64,000 nt of DNA, taken from the NCBI RefSeq assembly GCF_000473895.1, contig NZ_ASSJ01000030.1:1-64000 (forward strand), written 5' to 3'. The notes under the pieces were generated by a model. It made no database searches. It was given only the letters and a program-made list of their open reading frames with translations, and was not told the origin of the DNA. The position numbers and the translations under genes are program-made. This DNA is from Rubidibacter lacunae KORDI 51-2. GTDB taxonomy: Bacteria; Cyanobacteriota; Cyanobacteriia; Cyanobacteriales; Rubidibacteraceae. Each line of letters opens with the position of its first letter. Positions within the stretch are counted from its first letter, which is position 1. This document shows positions 4,312-33,180 of this stretch, in pieces.

Positions 4312-4348
4312 AAGCCGGTTTCTCCTTACGGAAGCTTGCTCGACTTAG

Positions 4349-4385
4349 CTCTCGACGGAGTTCCCGAGGTTCGGGTCCCTGAGAG
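4349..4385 (-). promoter_or_regulatory. Possible structured 5' leader of gdhA
   Basis: Between gdhA and the decayed transposase, the transcript could fold into a stem CTCTC/GAGAG enclosing an inner hairpin CCCGA-ACC-TCGGG. The structure sits about 38-74 bases upstream of the gdhA ATG. It matches no riboswitch consensus I know; glycine and glutamine riboswitch cores were looked for and not found. Only the base-pairing potential is observed. Confidence 0.25.
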
Positions 4386-4576
4386 TTCCTCCAAATATTC
4401 CAAATATATAGCGTCTCGGAAAACTTGAATGAAACGAGAATGGCAGAGCTTATGGTATCGATTTATTCCACAACTGCTTAGCGGGGGTTGGTTCGGAGCG
4501 CAACAAACAGGCTTTATCGGGATCGCTCACGGGTCTGAGGAAACCAAGAGCGATTTCCAGCGGGGGGGGGGGTTAA

Positions 4577-5235
4577 GTAAGCCGAGCTACTGTTTTCAGG
4601 GCATTGCGAAGTTTAAGGCTTAGTAAAAAACTACTTTGCCCGAGGAAGAACGAGACAGAGCAAATTGTAAAAGATTAGCAGAGTATTGGGATGGGAGGAA
4701 AGGCCTAGACCCAAAGAACTTAAATCTTATTCACGAAGAAGGGGTGAATTTGGGATGCTCCGGACTCATGCTCGCTCCGAGATAGGGCAACGGGCAACAA
4801 GTGAGTCGCCAAGAAGAGGAAAAATATCCCGATTGTAGGTGCTGTCAGTCCGACAGGAGTTGTTGGCTTACATTCCTGTTTAGGAGCATACGAAGGCTTA
4901 AAGTATGAATGATTTGTTTTTATGAAACTCTTGACAAGTGCATGAAAAAGAGCATGTGTGGCGATCGATAATTGCTCCATGCACGAAGAGAAAAAATCAG
5001 AGATTTCAACCAATCAGCATGGGCGAGACTGTTTTATTTGCCCCGCCACTCCCCAAGCTTTTCTCTCATAAATAATCTTGGGCCAAAAGTGAAGCCTTAG
5101 CTCAAAAAGATTGGAGCACGGAATTATCCAGACTGGATGCAAACTATTAAACGTCCTTCGGCAGCATCGATGACAAATTAAGCAACTGGGTTACTCACTG
5201 CTGTAATAGTCTTGCACCTCAATTATTTGAGCTGA
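4577..5235 (+). pseudogene. Decayed IS630-family transposase
   Basis: Translating all three forward frames gives consecutive IS630-type blocks with stops and frameshifts between them. VSRATVFRALRSLRLSKK (from 4577) matches the helix-turn-helix region. LAEYWDGRKGLDPKNL then LIHEEGVNLG (about 4672-4755) matches the first catalytic block, with the usual Asp changed to His. KNIPIVGAVSPTGVVGL (about 4823-4873) follows in another frame. CVAIDNCSMHEEK (about 4956-4992) is the second catalytic Asp block, and LSNWVTHCCNSLAP (about 5180-5219) is the typical C-terminus. A TAG at about 4783 and several frame changes make it non-functional. The N-terminal part before 4577 is too eroded to place. A run of 11 G at 4562-4572 lies just upstream. 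Confidence 0.8.
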
Positions 5236-5352
5236 ACCATATTGACAGTACGCAGGGCTTTTACGTGTTCTGTTGGTCAGTCAAGGAGCAAAGCGGAGTT
5301 CAAATAATTGCGTCAACCGTTAACATTGAGGACGGCGATTCGAGGGTGCAAA

Positions 5353-7350
5353 ATGGTCATTCGCTTCGGACGCGCTGTTTGTGGAGACTTAGCAGTTGCC
5401 GAGTCGCGCGAATGGTTGGTGACGAATGGGATTGGCGGTTATGCCTGCGGCACCGTTGCCGGATTGACGTCTCGTTTTTATCACGGCTTACTCGTTGCAG
5501 CCCTAGACCCACCGCTCGGGCGCGTCTTGATGTTGGCCCATTGCGACCCTACGGTCGCTTACCGCCAGCATCGATACGAACTTGGTACCAATCGCTGGGC
5601 AGACGGCTCGATTGCACCCCGCGGCTATCGCTACCTCGAAAGCTTTCACCTTGACGGCTCGGTTCCGACTTGGTGCTACGCGCTCGCCGATGCTCTGCTC
5701 GTGCAGCGCATCTGGATGGAGCGGGAGGAGAACTCGACCTACCTTCAATATTGCCTCGAGCGCGGTAGCGCGCCGCTGGAGTTGAGCATCAAGGCGATCG
5801 CGAATTACCGCGACCATCATGGCGGAGTTACGTGGGGCAACTGGCAGTTAGACGCGATCGAGAGCCAAGCCAACCCATATAACGGCATCCGCATGCGCGC
5901 TTTTCCTGAAGCCACACCGCTGTTTTTGCTGAGCGATCGCGGCGAATTTACGCCTGGCGGCGAGTGGTATCGCGGCTACGACTTGGCAGTCGAACGCTAC
6001 CGCGAGACAGGCGATCGCGAAGATCGCTTGCATGCCGCTACGCTTCGGGCCCTTATGGAACCGGGCGCGACACTGACCTTGGTTGCCAGTACGCACGACG
6101 ATGTTGACCTCGACGGCAACGCAGCCCGCCACCGCCGCCACGACTACGATCGCATGTTGGTCCAGCGCTGGCAGACGGCTCACGGATTGAAGCCGCCGGA
6201 TTGGATCGAGCAATTAACGCTTGCGGCCGACCAGTTTGTGGTCCGTCGTGCCGTACCCGTCGATCCTGACGGTAAAACCATCATCGCCGGGTATCCCTGG
6301 TTTGGCGATTGGGGGCGCGATACGGCAATTAGTTTGCCGGGACTGAGCGTTGCAGCCGGTCGTCCTGAAATCGCGCGGCCGATTTTGCGCACGTTCGGGC
6401 ATTACCTCAGTCAGGGCATGTTGCCCAATCTCTTTCCCGACGGCAGCACTGAACCGGAGTACAACACCGTCGATGCCGTTCTCTGGTATTTCGAGGCGGT
6501 ACGCGCCTACTTCAACGCAACAGGCGATGAAGACCTGCTGCGCGAGCTCTATTCCCCTCTAGAAGAGGCGATCGCCTGGCACCAGCGCGGCACTCGTTAC
6601 AACATCCATCTCGACTCCGATGGATTGCTCTACGCCGGGGAACCGGGCACACAACTGACATGGATGGATGCGAAGGTGGAGGATTGGGTTGTGACACCAC
6701 GCATCGGCAAGCCCGTTGAAATCAACGCCTTGTGGTTCAACGCGCTCCAGATTGTTGTGGAGTTTGCGCAGGTGCTCGATCGCCCTTATGCCGATTTAGC
6801 AACTCTACGCGATCGCGCGCGGCAAAGTTTCGCGAGGTTTTGGAGCGAGGACCTCGGCTATTGTATTGACGTGCTAGACGGTCCCGAGGGTGACGATACG
6901 GCGTTGCGTCCGAATCAAATCTTTGCCGTTTCGGTGCCGTCCGAGCCGCTGTTGACTCCCGAACGCCAGCGCGCGGTAGTCGATACCGTTTCCCGCCATT
7001 TGCTTACCTCCCACGGACTGCGCTCTCTTGCCCCAGCAGACGCCCAATATTGTCCGCATTATGGCGGCGATCGGCTTCAGCGCGACGGATGCTACCACCA
7101 GGGAACGGTTTGGGGTTGGTTGCTGGGACCGTTTGTGCAAGCTCATTTGCGCGTTTATCGCGACCCGGCAACGGCGCGCGCGCTCCTGCAACCGATGGCA
7201 GACCACTTGGCTGCCGGCGGACTCGGGACGATTAGCGAGATCTTTGATGGTGCGCCGCCCCATACTCCGCGCGGTTGCTTCGCCCAAGCCTGGAGTGTTG
7301 CTGAAATCCTCCGCGTGTGGCTGGCACTAGAGGATGTAGCCGGTTCGTGA
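5353..7350 (+). CDS. Glycogen debranching enzyme (amylo-alpha-1,6-glucosidase type)
   Basis: Hydrolyses alpha-1,6 branch stubs in glycogen; GDE_N plus GDE_C architecture, 665 residues. The N-terminal domain opens with NGIGGYACGTVAGLTSRFYH then GLLVAA. The catalytic (alpha/alpha)6 domain has AGYPWFGDWGRDTAISLPG (about residue 313), PNLFPDGSTEPEYNTVDA and LTWMDAKVEDWVVTPR followed by GKPVEINALW, all diagnostic. I start at ATG 5353, preceded by GAGGG, rather than at an in-frame TTG at 5308. Glycogen is the main cyanobacterial carbon store, so this enzyme with glk and gnd in the window fits night-time glycogen use. It is monocistronic here. Confidence 0.92.
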   Translation: MVIRFGRAVCGDLAVAESREWLVTNGIGGYACGTVAGLTSRFYHGLLVAALDPPLGRVLMLAHCDPTVAYRQHRYELGTNRWADGSIAPRGYRYLESFHLDGSVPTWCYALADALLVQRIWMEREENSTYLQYCLERGSAPLELSIKAIANYRDHHGGVTWGNWQLDAIESQANPYNGIRMRAFPEATPLFLLSDRGEFTPGGEWYRGYDLAVERYRETGDREDRLHAATLRALMEPGATLTLVASTHDDVDLDGNAARHRRHDYDRMLVQRWQTAHGLKPPDWIEQLTLAADQFVVRRAVPVDPDGKTIIAGYPWFGDWGRDTAISLPGLSVAAGRPEIARPILRTFGHYLSQGMLPNLFPDGSTEPEYNTVDAVLWYFEAVRAYFNATGDEDLLRELYSPLEEAIAWHQRGTRYNIHLDSDGLLYAGEPGTQLTWMDAKVEDWVVTPRIGKPVEINALWFNALQIVVEFAQVLDRPYADLATLRDRARQSFARFWSEDLGYCIDVLDGPEGDDTALRPNQIFAVSVPSEPLLTPERQRAVVDTVSRHLLTSHGLRSLAPADAQYCPHYGGDRLQRDGCYHQGTVWGWLLGPFVQAHLRVYRDPATARALLQPMADHLAAGGLGTISEIFDGAPPHTPRGCFAQAWSVAEILRVWLALEDVAGS

Positions 7351-21303: not shown

Positions 21304-21453
21304 GTGGTAGCAATCAATAAATCTCTTCAATAAAGCGTTCCTGAATAGGTGCAGTTGCTACATGATATCTTAAGATTTGCTAACAGGCTTTGACATCAAT
21401 TTCCGAGTCAGGTCGAGTTGCAAGCTCTCGATTTGGCACATCCGACGAACGCG

Positions 21454-23016
21454 ATGGGTGCTTACAAACCGCGCAGTTTGCCTGAAGCTCGAGTCGGAAC
21501 TGGGTTGGACGAAGTGCTATTCGGAGACAGCAACTTGACTATTCAGCAACTCAAACAAGAGTGGTTTTCCAACGTACGGGCCGATTTGCTGGCCGGAATG
21601 GTGGTCGCATTGGCCTTAATTCCGGAAGCGATCGCTTTTTCCATTGTTGCTGGAGTCGATCCTAAAGTCGGGTTGTATGCCTCCTTCATCATTGCCGTCA
21701 CGACAGCGATTTTTGGCGGACGTCCTGGTTTGATATCTGCTGCCACGGGCGCGATGGCGCTGTTGATGGTGGATTTAGTGAAAGAGCACGGGTTGCCGTA
21801 TCTCTTTGCTGCCGGCATTTTGACTGGGATTATCCAGATTTGCTTCGGCTGGCTCAAGTTGGGACGCAAACTCAAGTACGTTCCGCGCGCGGTGATGGTA
21901 GGGTTCGTCAACGCCCTGGCGATTTTGATTTTTCAATCGCAGCTGCCCCAACTGACCGATGTATCGATATCGGTTTACGTCATGGTTGCTGCATCTTTAG
22001 GAATCATCTATGTCTTGCCGCGTTTCACTAAGGCAGTTCCTTCGCCGCTGGTAGCGATCGTTGTGATGACGGCGATCGCTCTGGGTTTAGGACTAGACGT
22101 ACCGACCGTTGGCGACATGGGCGAACTCCCCTCAAGCTTGCCGCCGTTTGCAATTCCCCAGGTTCCGCTCAGCCTAGAAACGCTAGAAATTATCTTTCCC
22201 TACGCGGCCGCTCTGGCGACCGTTGGGTTGTTGGAATCCCTATTAACAGCATCTTTGATAGATGAGGTGACCGATACCCCAAGCGACAAAAACCAAGAAG
22301 CGACTGGTCAGGGAATTGCCAATATCATCGCGAGCTTTTTCGGCGGCATGGCAGGATGCGCGATGATCGGGCAGTCGGTCATCAACATTCGGTCTGGCGG
22401 ACGGGGGCGACTTTCGACGTTCGGGGCCGGCATTTTGCTGCTGTTCTTTATCTTGGTCCTATCAGATTGGGTGCAGCAGATTCCCATGGCAGCTCTGGTT
22501 GCAGTGATGATCGTGGTGTCCGTCGGGACATTTAACTGGTTGTCCATCACTCAGGCACGCCTCATCCCCCGCAGCGAAACAGCGGCGATGCTCACAACGG
22601 TGCTGATCACACTCCTAACCCACAACTTGGCAATCGGGGTGGCGGTCGGAATTGCCTTGAGCACGGTTTTCTTCTCCCGCAAGATCGCCAAACTCGTGTT
22701 TGTGGATTCGGTCCTCAGTGCGGATGGTAAGGAGCGAACTTACAACATCGGGGGACAGATTTTCTTTATCGCGATCGACGATCTCCTTGAGAAATTCAAC
22801 TTCCGCGAGGGACTCGAACGAGTAACCCTCAACTTCAGCCACGCTCACATCTGGGACCAAGCTGCTGTCGCTGCACTCGACCACATCGCGATCAAGTTCC
22901 GCCGCTACGGAACAGAGGTAAAAACAATCGGCTTAAACGAAGCTAGTGCCGAGTTGGTCGAGAAGTTGGGCATCCACCACAACCCCGATGCCGAACAAGA
23001 TCTTGCCGTTCACTGA
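21454..23016 (+). CDS. SulP-family inorganic anion transporter
   Basis: 520 residues from ATG 21454 (an in-frame TTG at 21418 is less likely). N-terminal membrane domain with the SulP hallmarks [20 protein letters not shown] (about 45-64), [12 protein letters not shown] and [16 protein letters not shown], then multiple helices. A C-terminal STAS domain begins near residue 430 ([20 protein letters not shown]). The cytoplasmic segment [19 protein letters not shown] is the YbaR/YvdB-type variant, unlike the corresponding segment I recall for the bicarbonate transporter BicA. Sulfate, bicarbonate or another anion could be the substrate. Tandem 13-bp repeats lie upstream. Confidence 0.85.
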
Positions 23017-27191: not shown

Positions 27192-27593
27192 CTAGCCCAT
27201 CAGAATGACGCCATCGATGACGTGAATGACGCCGTTATCTGCCTCAATGTCGGGTATAACAACCGTGGCATTCTTAACCTCGAAGCCGTCAGACAGATCG
27301 AGACCGATCTCAGAACCTTCAACGGAAACGAGCCGATCGCGTCCGACCAGATCGGCTTGCTTGAGCTTGCCGGAAACGACGTGATACTTGAGGATCCGGG
27401 CAAGCTGCGGCGGATTCTGCACCAGGGTTTGTACCGTGCCCGGCGGCAGTTTGGAGAAGGCCTCATCGGTGGGAGCAAACACCGTAAATGGTCCACTTCC
27501 CTTCAAGACCTCAACGAGTCCGGCGGCCTTGACTGCCGCGACGAGGGTCGAGAATCCTTCCGTGTTGGCAGCAATATCGACAATATCTGGCAT
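27192..27593 (-). CDS. Fasciclin (FAS1) domain protein
   Basis: A single FAS1 domain of 133 residues without a visible signal peptide: [20 protein letters not shown] at the N-terminus, [20 protein letters not shown] (H1 motif, about 34-53), [11 protein letters not shown] and the final [16 protein letters not shown] (H2). FAS1 proteins mediate adhesion or protein interactions. In Synechocystis the CO2-uptake NDH-1 complex contains the FAS1-like subunit CupS; this gene lies about 4.2 kb from the cup gene here, but its sequence looks like a generic fasciclin, so identity with CupS is only a possibility. Confidence 0.88.
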
Positions 27594-27942
27594 GTTGAAT
27601 TCCTGATTAACCTCTATCTCCGTCCGGATCGGATCGTCCTAGGACTCTGGGCATCCTCTCCCAAGAAGGGGCAGCCGGAGCGCTTGGCGAGCGACCTTAA
27701 GCCTACAGAGCCTCGCCTAGCAAGGATTTGCTTGTAAACCCCTGGGAGATAAGAGTTCCAGCCACCCTAAATCCGCGACTCCCGACCCCCTCTGTTTTCC
27801 CACTTCCCAAACGCCGCTGCAAGCTGCTCATCGGCGACAGACAGGCACTGGCAGCGGTTCGAGATCGGTACGGACATCTGCTAGCCTAGAGCAACCCGCA
27901 TATCGGCAGGAACGCGATCCGCAGGGGTTTAGTTTTGAGAGT
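27594..27942. other. Divergent promoter region, fasciclin / GT39
   Basis: 349 bases between divergent genes. It should contain both promoters. I see no ORF with protein-like composition, no repeat and no strong hairpin. Confidence 0.4.
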
Positions 27943-29187
27943 ATGAAGCGCTACGCTCAGAGTTGGGTTCTTGCCCTCGGATTGATGATTCGAATTGCCT
28001 GGGCAATAGCTGTTCCCGTCCAGCCCGTTTCCGACAGTATTGCTTACGATACGCTTGCCCGTTCGCTAGTGAGTGGGAGCGGTTATGGCTTTCAACCTGG
28101 AGACCCTAGTGCATACTGGCCGCCCGGTACATCGTTTGTATACGCTGTTCTCTACGCTATTTTCGGCACGAATTACCTCCCAGTTGTTCTTCTGAACTTA
28201 GGGCTGTTTTTAATCCTATCTGCTGTAACGATGTCCCTAACGGCGCAATGGTTTGGTCGCCGTACAGCTATTATTACCGGAATCCTGCTTGCTTGCTGGC
28301 CACTGCACGTGCAGATGACCACGATCTTGGCGAGCGAGCTGTTGTTTACAACTCTGGTAGTTGTTGCTTGGAGGATTTGGCTGAACGAGCAAATCACACT
28401 CCGGCTCAGGACAATCGCAGTTGGGATTTTGATGGGGGGCGCAGTCTACGTTCGAACGACAGCCTTACTCCTTCCCGGCTTGTTTGTATGGGTTCGCAGC
28501 ATTAAAATCCGCAAATTGTTCGAGTCAGCGATCGCCGGACTGCTCGTGTTGATTATTGCACTAGGTCTTGTCGCTCCTTGGTCCTACCGCAACTATCGCG
28601 TTCTCGGAGAGTTGGTGTTGGTATCGACCAACGGCGGTCCCGTGTTTTGGATGGGGAATAATTCCGAGAGCACGGGTGATTACATGCCATTGCCTCCCGA
28701 AGTCAAGGGGATGAGCGAAGTCGAGCGAGCGAGCTATTTGAAAAAGCTTGCTGTTCAACACGTTCGCGAGCAACCGCTGCAATTTGTCCGGCGTAGCGTC
28801 GTGAGACTATTCAAAACCCACAATCGCGAAACTATTGGCATTGCCTGGAATGCGATCGCGCTGCGAGAACGCTATGGAGACAAGTCACTGACTCTACTCA
28901 AGGCTTGGAGCCAGTTCTACTGGATTGCCGTGCTCGGGCTAGCCATTATTGGTACGATTCGCCTCAGCCGGCAAGCGGGATGGCTGGCGGTCATTGCACA
29001 CCCCGCAGTTTCGACATGGAGCTATTTTGCCGGTGTCCATGCCGTCGTAATAGCCAACGATCGATACCATTTCCCCAGCACGCCGTTCATTGCCATGCTG
29101 GCTGCTTACTCAATTGTGGGTATGCTGAGTCACAGCAAGACGGGAGCACGCAATAGTGAAGTCAAGGTGCTGGAAGCGCGCAGCTAA
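27943..29187 (+). CDS. GT39/ArnT-like membrane glycosyltransferase
   Basis: 414-residue GT-C-fold transferase that would move a sugar from a polyprenyl-phosphate carrier to an acceptor on the outer side of the inner membrane. The first periplasmic loop has the key acidic region PVSDSIAYDTLARSLVSGSG (about 28-47) and YWPPGTSFVYAVLYAIFG, as in PMT/ArnT proteins. About eight to nine further hydrophobic segments follow, and a soluble loop (VFWMGNNSESTGDYMPLPPE). The gene overlaps the downstream methyltransferase by one base (TAATG). First gene of a four-gene set; donor and acceptor are unknown. Confidence 0.8.
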   Translation: MKRYAQSWVLALGLMIRIAWAIAVPVQPVSDSIAYDTLARSLVSGSGYGFQPGDPSAYWPPGTSFVYAVLYAIFGTNYLPVVLLNLGLFLILSAVTMSLTAQWFGRRTAIITGILLACWPLHVQMTTILASELLFTTLVVVAWRIWLNEQITLRLRTIAVGILMGGAVYVRTTALLLPGLFVWVRSIKIRKLFESAIAGLLVLIIALGLVAPWSYRNYRVLGELVLVSTNGGPVFWMGNNSESTGDYMPLPPEVKGMSEVERASYLKKLAVQHVREQPLQFVRRSVVRLFKTHNRETIGIAWNAIALRERYGDKSLTLLKAWSQFYWIAVLGLAIIGTIRLSRQAGWLAVIAHPAVSTWSYFAGVHAVVIANDRYHFPSTPFIAMLAAYSIVGMLSHSKTGARNSEVKVLEARS

Positions 29188-29870
29188 TGAAAATGAACCG
29201 GGACCTTGCAACCGCGCTCGCCAGCTACCCACTCCTCATTCCACGCCTATATAACTATTTGCGCCTGGGAATTTTGCCGCTCCTCGACATCGCGGAAGCA
29301 GTGCCTCAGTTTGGAAAAGTTCTCGATGTTGGTTGTGGTTATGGACTCCTCGACATTTATCTCGCTAAGACGTCTAGCCAACGCTATGTAATTGGCAGCG
29401 AACTCAACAGCAAGCGCGTGCGCGTAGCAAAGCAAGCTGCTTGCGGCATCGAGAACGTTGAGTTCGTTCAAGAAGATTTGCTACGGGGGCAGCATGTCGG
29501 CGACATCAATTGCGCGATCCTCGTCGACCTCCTTCACCACATTAGTTACGAGCGCCAGCAAGCCTTGATTGCAGCCATCTGGGAAGCCCTTGCAGTCGGC
29601 GGAACCCTGATCGTCAAGGATATGGACGATCGGCCGGCTTTCAAATATTACATAAACCTTGTTCACGATAAACTCATGACTGGGTTTGACAAACTCTCGT
29701 TTATCAGTGCCGGAAAGTTGAGAGCAAACTTGGCAGCAAGAGGGTTTGTCGTGCATTCGTGTCGGACACTTCCGCATCCCTTCTACGCCCACTATCTCCT
29801 AACGTGCAAGAAGGCAGACTCGAATCTCTCCTCGCGAGACGTCGTCCACTTGCAGGAAGTCGAAGGGTGA
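29187..29870 (+). CDS. Class I SAM-dependent methyltransferase
   Basis: 227 residues with a Rossmann-type methyltransferase core: motif I KVLDVGCGYGLLDIYLA (about 45-61), the acidic SELNSKRV loop, EFVQEDLL, CAILVDLLHHI (motif IV, about 110-120) and GGTLIVKDMDD (about 140-150). The N-terminal and AFKYYINLVHDKLMTGF segments are amphipathic and may touch the membrane. It overlaps the glycosyltransferase and abuts the UbiA gene (TGA directly followed by ATG), so all three are co-translated. It could methylate the sugar or the lipid carrier; that is inference. Confidence 0.8.
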   Translation: MKMNRDLATALASYPLLIPRLYNYLRLGILPLLDIAEAVPQFGKVLDVGCGYGLLDIYLAKTSSQRYVIGSELNSKRVRVAKQAACGIENVEFVQEDLLRGQHVGDINCAILVDLLHHISYERQQALIAAIWEALAVGGTLIVKDMDDRPAFKYYINLVHDKLMTGFDKLSFISAGKLRANLAARGFVVHSCRTLPHPFYAHYLLTCKKADSNLSSRDVVHLQEVEG

Positions 29871-30806
29871 ATGGCCAGTAAACAGGTTGGCTGGCAACCC
29901 TACATTGCCGTACTCCGCCCCCATCAGTGGACGAAGAACCTCATCGTCTTTGCAGCCCCCCTCTTCTCATTTTCAATTAGTTGGGGAATTTTTTTAAAAG
30001 GAACTGTAGCATTCTGCCTTTTCTGCGTGACGGCAAGTAGCTTCTATATATTCAATGACACCCTCGATGTCAAAGCCGACCGCCGTCACCCCGTTAAGTG
30101 CAAGCGCCCTATTGCCTCAGGTGCCGTGCATCTCAAGATCGTGGTTGGGATGGCGGCTGTCTTGCTGGCAGGGTCGATTCTGACAGCGTGGTGGCAATCC
30201 CCAGTCCTAGGTGCGACGCTCTCAGGGTACGCTGTTCTGCAAGTCGCTTACAATTTAAAGCTCAAGCGGACGGCGATTTTAGATGTTGGGGCGATCGCGG
30301 CGGGGTTTGTGCTGCGTGCTTATGCCGGAGCAGCGGCAACTGAGATCGCACTCTCACCTTGGTTTGTACTCTGTACTGCCATGTTGGCGTTATTTCTGGG
30401 TATTGAAAAACGCAAAGCCGAGCTGTTATTAGTTGAGAGGACGGGACAGAAGGGGCGAAGTGTTCTATCGCGTTACTCCAAAGAACTCCTCGCCCGCATG
30501 GAAAACACAGTGACGACGAGTACATTGCTGACTTACTCACTATGGAGCGCCGGGCCGGTTGTGAATGGAGCACCGACGGCCTGGATGATGCTGACCGTTC
30601 CATTCGTGCTATATGGTATCTTTCGTTATCAACTATTGAGCGAGACCCACGCTGAATATCTCCGCGAGCAACCCGAGTCTGCCAGCAGACAGACGGAGCA
30701 CCCAGAGGAAGTTTTGCTTAAGGACATGCCAGTATTTCTGACTGTCACCGGTTGGGTCGTTGCCTGCGCGACAATCCTCTGGCTCGATCACCGCGGCATA
30801 GTTTAA
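29871..30806 (+). CDS. UbiA-superfamily prenyltransferase, decaprenyl-phosphate phosphoribosyltransferase-like
   Basis: 311-residue membrane protein with about nine helices. The first Asp-rich motif is NDTLDVKADRRHPVKCKRPI (about 61-80), the arrangement (NDxxDxxxDxxHPxKxxRP) seen in DPPR synthases such as mycobacterial Rv3806c, which transfer phosphoribose from PRPP to polyprenyl phosphate. The N-terminus LRPHQWTKNLIVFAAPLFS and LFLGIEKRKAELL (about 180-192) also fit this subgroup better than UbiA or ChlG. It starts on the base after the methyltransferase stop. The likely product is a polyprenyl-phosphate-linked pentose; the sugar is not provable by eye. Confidence 0.82.
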   Translation: MASKQVGWQPYIAVLRPHQWTKNLIVFAAPLFSFSISWGIFLKGTVAFCLFCVTASSFYIFNDTLDVKADRRHPVKCKRPIASGAVHLKIVVGMAAVLLAGSILTAWWQSPVLGATLSGYAVLQVAYNLKLKRTAILDVGAIAAGFVLRAYAGAAATEIALSPWFVLCTAMLALFLGIEKRKAELLLVERTGQKGRSVLSRYSKELLARMENTVTTSTLLTYSLWSAGPVVNGAPTAWMMLTVPFVLYGIFRYQLLSETHAEYLREQPESASRQTEHPEEVLLKDMPVFLTVTGWVVACATILWLDHRGIV

Positions 30807-31345
30807 TCGGATTCGCAATCAAGTCTAGAGAGTCCCTCAATACAGTATCGATTGAAGCATCAAGTTTTCGATTGCTTGCTGAAATCAACCTCTCGGTTTT
30901 ACAGGTGACCGGCATTCAGGTATTATCCTCGACCTTTATAACACTATTGCCCTCGCTGAAGATCTGGTATATTCGCCTCGCGCCTGCGAATGGTTAAAGT
31001 TGCAAAGGTATAGGGATTGAAGCTCTTTCTGCTCTCGAAAAGCAGTCATTGCGATCGCGTAGCTGCAAGGTCGCAGCGATTTGGAGTAAACGGTTTGAGT
31101 CGCGCAGCGCGCAAGCCGCGTCCCTTTGCCTTCCATAGGGCGATTGCCAAACGCGGGCGCTCTCCCAACCAAATCATCGCCTTGAAGATAGTTTCCATAC
31201 AGACGTGTTGTTAGCATGGTGGATCGGCCGGACCAGCATTCTGGTCGCTGGCTTTCTCCATCGCTTACTGTGGCTGGAGAAGCTCCTCGGAGATGGCTTC
31301 ACATTCCCTATGCCGAAGTGCGCGTCCCCATTCAACTCAAACCCG
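30807..31345. other. Gap between the UbiA-like and SMR genes
   Basis: 539 bases with no convincing gene. Small open frames (for example 31017-31214 forward) translate to Arg/Ser-rich sequence without family resemblance. The gap means the SMR gene may have its own promoter. Confidence 0.4.
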
Positions 31346-31705
31346 ATGAAAGACGATCCAACTACAGTCAGCTTGCTCCTTTATTTCTTGCTGCTCTTAG
31401 CTGCCGTTGGCTGTAACAGCATCGGACAAACCTTGCTCAAGCTCGGGTCCGGTCAATCAGTGCTCAATCCTTACATCGCAAGCGGCTTACTGGCTTATAG
31501 CATTGGGACGATATCTTACATTGCCTTGCTCAGCAAGCTGAATCTTTCAGTTGCCTACCCGGTCGTGATTGGCTTGACCATCATCATGACGACGTTGTCG
31601 GGGACAATGTTCTTACATGAGAAGGTCGCTCCCGGGCATTGGTTGGGGATCGGTTTAATGCTAAGCGGTATCTTGGCAATCACTTCTGCGGGTTGGCGAC
31701 AGTGA
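31346..31705 (+). CDS. SMR/EamA-like four-helix transporter (putative lipid-linked sugar flippase)
   Basis: 119 residues from ATG 31346, with four hydrophobic helices (about 8-27, 40-59, 65-85, 97-115). It aligns with EmrE-type proteins through NSIGQTLLKL and the closing HWLGIGLMLSGILAI. The membrane-embedded Glu essential for drug/proton antiport in EmrE (AEVIGTTLMK) is Asn here (CNSIGQTLLK), which argues against drug export and favours an ArnE/ArnF-like flippase role. The position downstream of GT39 and DPPR-synthase-like genes supports flipping of a lipid-linked sugar. The open frame extends to 31205 but that part is not SMR-like. Confidence 0.75.
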   Translation: MKDDPTTVSLLLYFLLLLAAVGCNSIGQTLLKLGSGQSVLNPYIASGLLAYSIGTISYIALLSKLNLSVAYPVVIGLTIIMTTLSGTMFLHEKVAPGHWLGIGLMLSGILAITSAGWRQ

Positions 31706-31799
31706 GCAGCTCGGGCGAAGCATTAAAAGTCGCATTTCTCAGTGCTGTAAGTGGAGCGTTCGGGACCTCAGGCACCCCCTACGACATCGAACCGCATGG

Positions 31800-33116
31800 T
31801 TAGCGATAGTCTTGACTTTGGATGTCCCGCAAACGAGCTTCCGGCCGCAAGAAGCGGTCCATCTGCGCCTCGAAAAACTGGCGATTGGCCAGCAAGTGCT
31901 TGGGATTGGGATCGTCCAGCGGATACAGCAATGCTAGGCGCAGCGCTTGAATGACCGCCGAGGTGACGTTGTACATCGATCGCTGGAAGGTAATTCCGAG
32001 CTGGATGAGGATATCGTCCTGTCCGCGGGCGTGCTCTTGGTAATAATCCCGCAAGTACGGCGGCAGAAAATGCATCATGTCCTGCATCAGCAGCGTCGGC
32101 GGAATCCCAGCCGAGCCGACGGGAAACACGTCAGCGTACAGAATGCCGAAATGGAAATCTTCTTGTTGCTCTGGAACTTGACCGGCTTGGGCGTTGTAGG
32201 ATTTGGTGCCTCGGAACGGAGACGTGCGGTAGAACACGGACTCTACGTAGGGCAGTGCTGCTTCGTACAACCAGGTGAACCCCTTCGACTTGGGCACGAT
32301 CTCGTAGCATTCCCCATCGACGTAGAGGTGGTGATAGATGGGTCGTCCGGCAATGGCAAAGATACCGTTCACCAGAAAGTTCATCGCATCGGGCACCCCT
32401 TTAAATCCGCCCTCATCGTAGATATCCGACATCTCGAAGAAGACCGGAGCCATGACTTCCCAAAACAACCCCAAGTTGGAGTAGTAAGACAGTTCCCGTA
32501 CCTTCTCGACGAACATCTCGGGAAAAACTCGATAAAGCGCCAGCATCGACGGATTTTTCTTGAAAAAGGCGCGAATGGCGCGATCGCAATTGGCCTTGTA
32601 TTCCGCCGAATCCAGATAGGCATCGAACTGGTTGACTGGAGCGTACATATGTCGGTGCCAGAACATGGCGCGCATGCAGGCTTCGGCAAACTCCATGTTG
32701 ATGCGATCGTGCCAGAGGTGGTGGAAAAGTTTGGGCAGTTTGCGCTTGACTTCGCCAGTTGCCATGAACTCTAGCAACTCGGGATGAGCAGCAGCGGTTC
32801 CGCGCCAAATCCGCAAATCTGCCGTATCTCCGGCGTAGTGATTGGGGCGTTCCAAGTACTCCTTAGAAATAAAGTACTTGAAGAATGGAAGCGGATCGAG
32901 GAATACATACTCGGCGATGTAGAGCAAGTCCCGCCAGTAAAAGTCCATCGGCACCGCGTAGGCTTTATAGATGCCGATAATTTGCATCAGATTCTCAGGC
33001 GTATCGGGCAGCATCGAGCCGCCTGCCTCCAGGCGATGGATTACCTCCGAGAAGGGATGCTGCGAAGGAGGAATGCGTGCGGGGTCAACTCCTCGTGAAG
33101 GCATCGTTGCAGTCAT
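31800..33116 (-). CDS. CO2 hydration protein (ChpX/ChpY, CupB/CupA family)
   Basis: 438-residue peripheral subunit that gives the specialised NDH-1 complex its CO2-to-bicarbonate hydration activity on the cytoplasmic side of the thylakoid. The sequence is strongly conserved over its whole length, for example GGSMLPDTPENLMQIIGIYK, HHLWHDRINMEFAEAC, YYSNLGLFWEVMAPVFFEMS and RPIYHHLYVDGECYEIVPKS. I start at MTATMPSRG (33116), not the in-frame TTG at 33137. It is third in ndhF-ndhD-cup. No cupS follows, which favours the constitutive low-affinity form (ChpX/CupB); this is inference, not read from residues. Confidence 0.92.
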   Translation of the reverse strand: MTATMPSRGVDPARIPPSQHPFSEVIHRLEAGGSMLPDTPENLMQIIGIYKAYAVPMDFYWRDLLYIAEYVFLDPLPFFKYFISKEYLERPNHYAGDTADLRIWRGTAAAHPELLEFMATGEVKRKLPKLFHHLWHDRINMEFAEACMRAMFWHRHMYAPVNQFDAYLDSAEYKANCDRAIRAFFKKNPSMLALYRVFPEMFVEKVRELSYYSNLGLFWEVMAPVFFEMSDIYDEGGFKGVPDAMNFLVNGIFAIAGRPIYHHLYVDGECYEIVPKSKGFTWLYEAALPYVESVFYRTSPFRGTKSYNAQAGQVPEQQEDFHFGILYADVFPVGSAGIPPTLLMQDMMHFLPPYLRDYYQEHARGQDDILIQLGITFQRSMYNVTSAVIQALRLALLYPLDDPNPKHLLANRQFFEAQMDRFLRPEARLRDIQSQDYR

Positions 33117-33180
33117 GGCTGGCTCGAAAGGAAACAACTAAACGCAATAATCGGGCAAATCATGTTCCAGGATTGCCGTT

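Follow-up and report, generated by a model that had tools for sequence, protein, structure and literature searches.

Several systems that handle a polyprenyl-phosphate-linked pentose have been described. In the lipid A aminoarabinose system, an SMR-type flippase (ArnE/ArnF) and the GT-C enzyme ArnT use such a lipid, the donor being made by ArnC, and the mycobacterial decaprenyl-phosphoryl arabinose (DPA) pathway (Rv3806c, Rv3807c, DprE1/DprE2, Rv3789, Emb/Aft) starts with the transfer of phosphoribose from phosphoribosyl pyrophosphate (PRPP) to polyprenyl phosphate. The three-component system of Citrobacter youngae O1/O2 comprises ORF15, a polyprenyl-phosphate phosphoribosyltransferase (PPPRS) with a phosphatase domain (PRP), the flippase ORF14, and ORF12, which belongs to family GT136 (Kelly et al. 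2024, PMC11127046). Here, we analyzed a window of 64,000 nt (the whole stretch of DNA under study) from Rubidibacter lacunae KORDI 51-2, contig NZ_ASSJ01000030.1 (GCF_000473895.1), in which candidates for a PPPRS, a flippase, and a GT-C-type glycosyltransferase are encoded side by side, the functions of the latter two being predicted. Although we infer every enzymatic step, we consider it fairly probable that this module represents the three-component pentofuranose pathway in a compact cyanobacterial form. It shares with the Citrobacter system a UbiA-fold PPPRS, a GT-C candidate, a candidate flippase with four helices that resembles EmrE/ArnE and, in its ancestral set, a HAD phosphatase; unlike that system, it has an additional methyltransferase. 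In the open-licence literature, we found neither a cyanobacterial lipid-linked ribose pathway nor ribosylation of a cyanobacterial surface glycan, and the main text of PMC11127046 nowhere uses the word cyanobacteria.

From family models, residues, and fold, the UbiA protein is predicted to be a polyprenyl-phosphate phosphoribosyltransferase that uses PRPP. An earlier note on this DNA had taken it, by its signature NDxxDxxxDxxHPxKxxRP, which is indeed present, for an enzyme of the decaprenyl-phosphoryl-ribose (DPPR) synthase type, and this assignment is supported. The protein scores 225.5 bits against the NCBIfam model NF008978 (decaprenyl-phosphate phosphoribosyltransferase; cut-off 207) and remains under the cut-offs of two sibling models (223.7 vs 234 and 185.9 vs 474). 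A sequence search of the Protein Data Bank (PDB) gave convincing matches only to 8j8j (E = 2.2e-39) and 8j8k (E = 4.1e-30). In agreement, an AlphaFold2 (AF2) model built from 17 sequences (pLDDT 82.9) has 8j8j as its top Foldseek match (TM 0.79/0.84, E = 1.2e-13), the next UbiA homologue being the prenyl-transferring 4tq4 (TM 0.64/0.69, E = 1.7e-6). Entry 8j8j is the structure of Rv3806c, for which 13 residues are named for PRPP, Mg, or the lipid phosphate (PMC10994848). Eleven of these are identical in the window protein, while Tyr157 is replaced by Phe, as also occurs in some mycobacteria (PMC10994848), and Lys208 by Ser. The 11 kept residues are invariant in a 66-row alignment that includes the window, apart from a single Gly at Arg90.

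Five further UbiA genes are found in the genome, whose products score best as a heme O synthase, a 4-hydroxybenzoate type (below cut-off), a homogentisate phytyltransferase (HPT), a chlorophyll synthase (ChlG), and MenA. The equivalents of Lys191 and Gln135, present in the window protein, are absent from all five. In a tree with very long branches, the window UbiA groups with 8j8j and the cyanobacterial set and apart from the other five; as the branch support is only 63%, we base its identity on residues, family models, and fold. By these three lines it stands apart from the genome's ChlG, HPT, and heme O synthase, which answers the check on clustering with ChlG, HPT, or COX10 that the earlier note had proposed. 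A phosphatase fused to UbiA, as in ORF15, was considered and rejected, as the 311-aa protein consists of the UbiA domain alone.

UbiA proteins of this type are sporadic, with 39 of 292 phylum genomes positive at E ≤ 1e-20 (distant members and this genome included) and, within the order, 58 of 388 at E ≤ 1e-60 (this genome included), but none of the eight other genomes of the same family at the latter threshold. We surveyed 65 loci from 62 genomes, three of which gave two loci each. They comprise 11 phylum loci with at least 47% identity (L053–L063) and 54 loci of the order (L104–L157); outside this set are L064, the distant phylum hits, L037–L052 (which may be duplicates), and the loci retrieved by way of the GT-C protein (L158–L165). 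At several loci (e.g. L115, L153), the sequence stops no more than 1.5 kb from UbiA, an effect that can reduce the counts but not raise them, and the HAD, SMR, and DprE profiles were built partly from members of the counted loci. One UbiA gene (L156) contains a stop. Within 3 kb of UbiA and on the same strand, 39 of the 65 loci have a YqeG-type HAD gene, 29 an SMR gene, and 28 both. In L128, from another family, GT-C, methyltransferase, UbiA, HAD, and SMR genes follow each other in exactly the order of the window. Since the same genes adjoin in other genomes, as the neighborhood survey suggested by the earlier note could establish, their grouping is more than chance. The second refuting condition of that note, a gene set that co-occurs in no other genome, is thereby also answered in favor of its reading. 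In L123, L129, and L132, a protein of ~529 aa is encoded after UbiA and HAD; that of L123 is apolipoprotein N-acyltransferase-like (CN_hydrolase and LNT_N domains).

The survey also revealed a gene that had been overlooked. In many related loci, a HAD hydrolase of ~190 aa is encoded directly after UbiA and is followed by SMR, and in the window a decayed copy of this gene lies in the 540 bases that separate UbiA from SMR. One of the 39 YqeG-type HAD genes (L115) is cut by a contig end, leaving 38 open copies for comparison. For all 38, the best match in the 64-kb window falls at the remnant (31 with E < 1e-5, best 4.8e-17), compared with E = 0.009 for the best of 120 shuffled queries. The pieces of the remnant are collinear but lie in different frames with an internal TAG stop, and the motif DLDNT, found in 38 of 38 relatives, reads DLYNT, so that the catalytic Asp is lost. 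The HAD gene of the window is thus a pseudogene. A sequencing error as its sole cause was rejected because of the several lesions and the general loss of identity. The core pieces of the remnant have a mean identity of 42.5% to the 38 relatives (range 37–46%; recognizable core pieces alone scored), whereas intact HAD pairs of comparable UbiA divergence reach 60.7% (sd 4.0, n = 60) and the window UbiA has 60.8% to the same 38 loci. The HAD gene has therefore lost its constraint, while UbiA kept its own. The tail of the remnant forms most of the first 47 codons (most of 31205–31345) of the open reading frame 31205–31705, which the earlier note had called as a 166-aa SMR gene; homologues instead place the SMR start at the ATG at 31346, giving 119 aa.

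The intact HAD from L037, the member scanned, matches the YqeG family model with 173.9 bits (cut-off 89.1) and also the Pfam family 'Mitochondrial PGP phosphatase', which we take to be that of Gep4 from yeast. A yeast mutant in phosphatidylglycerophosphate (PGP) phosphatase is complemented by an algal homologue of Gep4 (PMC5897459). The cyanobacterial HAD differs from its Citrobacter counterpart in being a separate gene, of YqeG type by the one member scanned, and a pseudogene in the window. YqeG-type HADs are not known to have a cap. The Citrobacter PRP domain has a helical one (PMC11127046), and the cyanobacterial HAD is apparently of another class, the two being set apart by their descriptions. 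The phosphatase class also differs from that of mycobacteria, where Rv3807c is unrelated to the HAD-family PRPs (PMC11127046).

Across the survey, three HAD groups occur near UbiA. The YqeG type is the largest, as counted above, and the other two lie within 6 kb of UbiA in 9 and 2 loci, being of PF12710 type and HAD_2 type as judged from the members scanned. Minor-group HADs are encoded beside UbiA in L062, L063, L133, L136, and L139, and 0.7–4.1 kb off elsewhere. Exactly one group is found within 6 kb in 50 of the 65 loci and two groups in none, and none of the profiles compared recognizes members of another group at E ≤ 1. That different phosphatases accompany the same UbiA enzyme, never two groups at one locus, is our main argument for a 5'-phosphatase step. 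None of the three profiles matches L034, a 469-aa UbiA protein of a distant group taken for a HAD fusion, so they do not cover every HAD tied to UbiA proteins.

As its dedicated HAD gene is dead, R. lacunae would need another phosphatase for this step. The first candidate is a YqeG-family paralogue on contig C3, since by its family it may be a lipid-phosphate phosphatase; a YqeG-family gene is present in 19 of 20 genomes searched, R. lacunae included. Some ribosylation still occurred in Citrobacter with a D18A mutant of the ORF15 phosphatase domain (Kelly et al. 2024, PMC11127046). A second genome lacking the dedicated phosphatase is represented by L049, a metagenome-assembled Leptolyngbya, in which SMR directly follows UbiA (4327–5645) and no trace of a HAD was found in the whole 15 kb. 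More tentatively, and in our view somewhat doubtfully, cyanobacteria may have recruited a YqeG/GEP4-type, PGP-phosphatase-like HAD as the 5'-phosphatase for lipid-linked ribose, with the paralogue doing both jobs in R. lacunae, so that the dedicated copy could die. If true, both HAD substrates would carry their phosphate monoester on a polyol, which a phosphodiester in turn anchors to a lipid.

The SMR protein, our flippase candidate, is 47–57% identical to the SMR proteins of related loci. In EmrE, Glu14 is the residue behind proton-driven drug pumping. This position is occupied by Asn in the window protein and in 27 of 28 relatives, and by Gly in the remaining one, which makes a proton-driven drug pump unlikely. 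Among NCBIfam models ArnE fits best (44.5 bits vs a cut-off of 92), followed by ArnF at 17.4 vs 99. The flippase of ArnE/ArnF type envisaged in the earlier note is thus retained as an ArnE/EmrE-like four-helix candidate, without membership of either family. Compared with the Arn system, which likewise pairs an SMR-type flippase with a GT-C enzyme, the donor in the window would be made by a UbiA protein, and the SMR protein lies under the ArnE cut-off.

For the transferase candidate, the earlier GT39/PMT-like label has behind it a PMT_2 match of low score, although PMT_2 matches all 10 members of the family that were scanned. Invariant in the family are D31, Y35, and D36, which follow the first helix, and D373-R374-Y375-H376 close to the end of the chain. 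The GT136 enzyme ORF12 requires D31, E34, H106, and R349, with Y35 and Y350 also of importance (PMC11127046). The window protein resembles ORF12 in the Asp after the first helix and the late Arg-Tyr pair, a likeness rather than membership, and differs in having Ala at the position of the essential Glu34. Relatives of the GT-C protein are found in seven other genomes among 388 of the class. Of eight places fetched, four have UbiA alongside, two are full-length without it, and two are partial. Among the 65 UbiA loci, three (L112, L125, L128) have the GT-C gene within 4 kb at E < 1e-100. A window-like methyltransferase lies near UbiA in six loci, three of them from one genus. In L143 (7975–9341), a methyltransferase and a PF12710 HAD are encoded after UbiA, a case of a methyltransferase together with another HAD group.

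Which pentose the lipid would carry can be approached through the epimerase genes. A DprE1 query against the whole genome (99.63% complete assembly) gave no convincing match, the only hit being partial and 24% identical (E = 5.5e-5), with short-chain dehydrogenase/reductase (SDR) genes outside the search. With a convincing DprE1 missing and no epimerase encoded next to UbiA, ribose is a more probable sugar than arabinose, in line with the earlier suggestion. This also sets the genome apart from the DPA pathway, with which the window would share the first step but not the transferases. DprE1 is found in 10 of the 65 loci (L058, L059, L060, L062, L063, L106, L116, L122, L126, L130), none of which has a YqeG-type HAD or SMR as found in related loci of the window type. 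Nine of the 10 also have a DprE2-like gene, and their UbiA proteins are homologous, with 47–62% identity. Five encode a 513–536-aa protein that matches the PF12710-type profile; the one scanned (L058) is a fusion of a PF12710 HAD with an LPG_synthase_TM domain and may combine phosphatase and flippase in a single chain. We regard these DprE1-bearing loci as candidate lipid-linked arabinose pathways.

Taken together, the UbiA protein would act at the cytoplasmic face and load polyprenyl phosphate with 5-phosphoribose taken from PRPP, as suggested by residues and fold. A phosphatase would then take off the 5'-phosphate, which in the 39 loci with the YqeG-type HAD is likely the task of the enzyme encoded beside UbiA, and in R. 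lacunae presumably that of another phosphatase. The SMR protein, devoid of the drug-pump glutamate, would flip polyprenyl-phosphate ribose, the GT-C protein would set ribofuranose on a cell-surface acceptor, and the methyltransferase may act on either the sugar or that acceptor. Compared with the earlier overall reading of this locus, the synthase type, the flippase and GT-C candidates, and ribose find support, while the phosphatase step had been missed and the SMR start misplaced. The suggested methylation of the sugar gains no support, such a methyltransferase lying near UbiA in just six of the 65 loci.

Several observations weigh against this pathway. The phosphatase gene is dead in the window, so the pathway may be failing in R. 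lacunae. In the survey, 15 of the 65 UbiA loci have no HAD of the three profiled groups within 6 kb, and 36 have no SMR within 3 kb. The SMR protein scores below the ArnE cut-off, and the GT-C family score is weak (PMT_2, 27.1 bits, cut-off 26.1). PDB sequence searches with the GT-C protein alone and with a 10-sequence profile gave no match, and we make no claim on its fold, as the AF2 model from the single sequence was useless (pLDDT 47.7). Of the six full-length relatives of the GT-C protein, two (L160, L161) come without UbiA in the sequence that was fetched. Moreover, L054, which has HAD and SMR, also has a DprE2-like SDR gene 2.3 kb off on the other strand, so DprE2-like genes alone do not mark the arabinose-type arrangement. 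The separation of HAD and DprE1 across loci has a plain Fisher p of 3e-5 when kinship is ignored, and in a kinship-corrected independent-pairs test the supported pairs were too few for significance.

Among other explanations, decay is the likeliest. The module would have arrived as a cassette and lost its phosphatase gene, and the other genes would be open only because too little time has passed, with no ribose being transferred. The several lesions in the HAD gene, the absence of this UbiA from the eight other genomes of the family, and the position between cupA and the fasciclin gene are all compatible with such a course. However, the remnant has fallen so far below the identity of intact pairs that the loss is not very recent, and UbiA has retained its identity and key residues while the GT-C, methyltransferase, and SMR frames stay open, so the rest seems under selection; we consider decay unlikely. 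Alternatively, the sugar could be transferred with its 5-phosphate, loss of the phosphatase thereby creating a new charged decoration by phosphoribosylation of the acceptor. In its favor, the synthase, flippase, and transferase genes are still open beside a dead phosphatase gene, and L049 likewise lacks a HAD. We nevertheless judge it very unlikely, given that a YqeG-family paralogue is at hand, that we know of no precedent, and that no differences of the GT-C and SMR proteins from those of HAD-bearing relatives were noticed, albeit without a systematic search.

Another pentofuranose, such as arabinose or xylose, might be formed by epimerases encoded elsewhere in the genome. An SDR epimerase alone converts ribofuranose to xylofuranose (Kelly et al., PMC11127046), and SDR genes elsewhere in the R. 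lacunae genome lay outside the searches made. Against this, there is no convincing DprE1 genome-wide, and DprE1, where found among the 65 loci, never accompanies the HAD/SMR arrangement, which makes this option quite improbable. That the UbiA protein is an ordinary aromatic or chlorophyll prenyltransferase would agree with its membership of PF01040, but it has both the Lys191 and Gln135 equivalents that distinguish it from the genome's other five, and sequence and fold both point to 8j8j, leaving this a negligible prospect. We favor the pentofuranose pathway with ribose as the sugar.

The features of the locus are compiled in the table below. The four open reading frames listed in the earlier note are present on the + strand, the last of them with the revised start, and the first three are packed head to tail as it described. 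The GT-C and methyltransferase frames share one base at 29187, and the methyltransferase stop abuts the UbiA start (29868–29873). A Pfam scan supports the domain assignments, with scores in bits of 27.1 for PMT_2 (PF13231), 47.1 for PF13649, 74 for UbiA (PF01040), and 34.3 for SMR (PF00893).

Coordinates of the module and its neighbors in the window; functions of the module proteins are predicted.
Feature	Coordinates	Strand	Basis or remark
GT-C-type glycosyltransferase candidate (PMT_2), 414 aa	27943..29187	+	Proposed transferase of lipid-linked pentose
Class I S-adenosylmethionine (SAM) methyltransferase, 227 aa	29187..29870	+	PF13649; UbiG-like in PDB search
Putative UbiA-fold polyprenyl-phosphate phosphoribosyltransferase (PPPRS/DPPR-synthase type), 311 aa	29871..30806	+	NF008978, 8j8j
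YqeG-type HAD phosphatase pseudogene	about 30830..31327	+	Similarity to 38 open relatives
SMR-family four-helix protein, 119 aa, proposed flippase	31346..31705	+	SMR homologues, PF00893
Fasciclin-domain protein, left neighbor	27192..27593	-	PF02469
ChpXY/CupA CO2 hydration protein, right neighbor	31800..33137	-	TIGR01964, 748.5 bits

The module occupies the + strand (27594–31799) between the ChpXY/CupA and fasciclin-domain genes, both on the - strand. The former adjoins an NdhD-type gene and NdhF3 (TIGR01960, 905.6 bits), and the fasciclin-domain protein is probably CupS, the product of cupS. In Synechocystis, ndhF3-ndhD3-cupA-cupS form an operon (PMC11456788), and in one genome of the same family (G159) the ChpXY and fasciclin matches are about 58 bp apart; in the four other family genomes fetched, the two do not lie next to each other like this. 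The simplest account, based on one relative and one model organism, is that the cassette inserted as a whole between cupA and cupS. No repeats of more than 9 bases were found at the module edges. About 4.2 kb from the fasciclin gene, the window encodes a SulP-family transporter (21418–23016) that scores under both the sulP and the BicA cut-off; it may be a further gene for inorganic carbon close to the CO2-uptake set.

If our reading is correct, the logic of pentofuranose glycosylation known from mycobacteria and Citrobacter would extend to a widespread, though sporadic, cyanobacterial gene set, in which the gene content suggests that ribose-type and arabinose-type arrangements may be separable. 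It would also newly point to a YqeG-type phosphatase family, whose link to this pathway is absent from the open-licence literature consulted on it. With its dedicated HAD gene lost, R. lacunae would represent a natural knockout in which the need for a dedicated phosphatase becomes directly testable.

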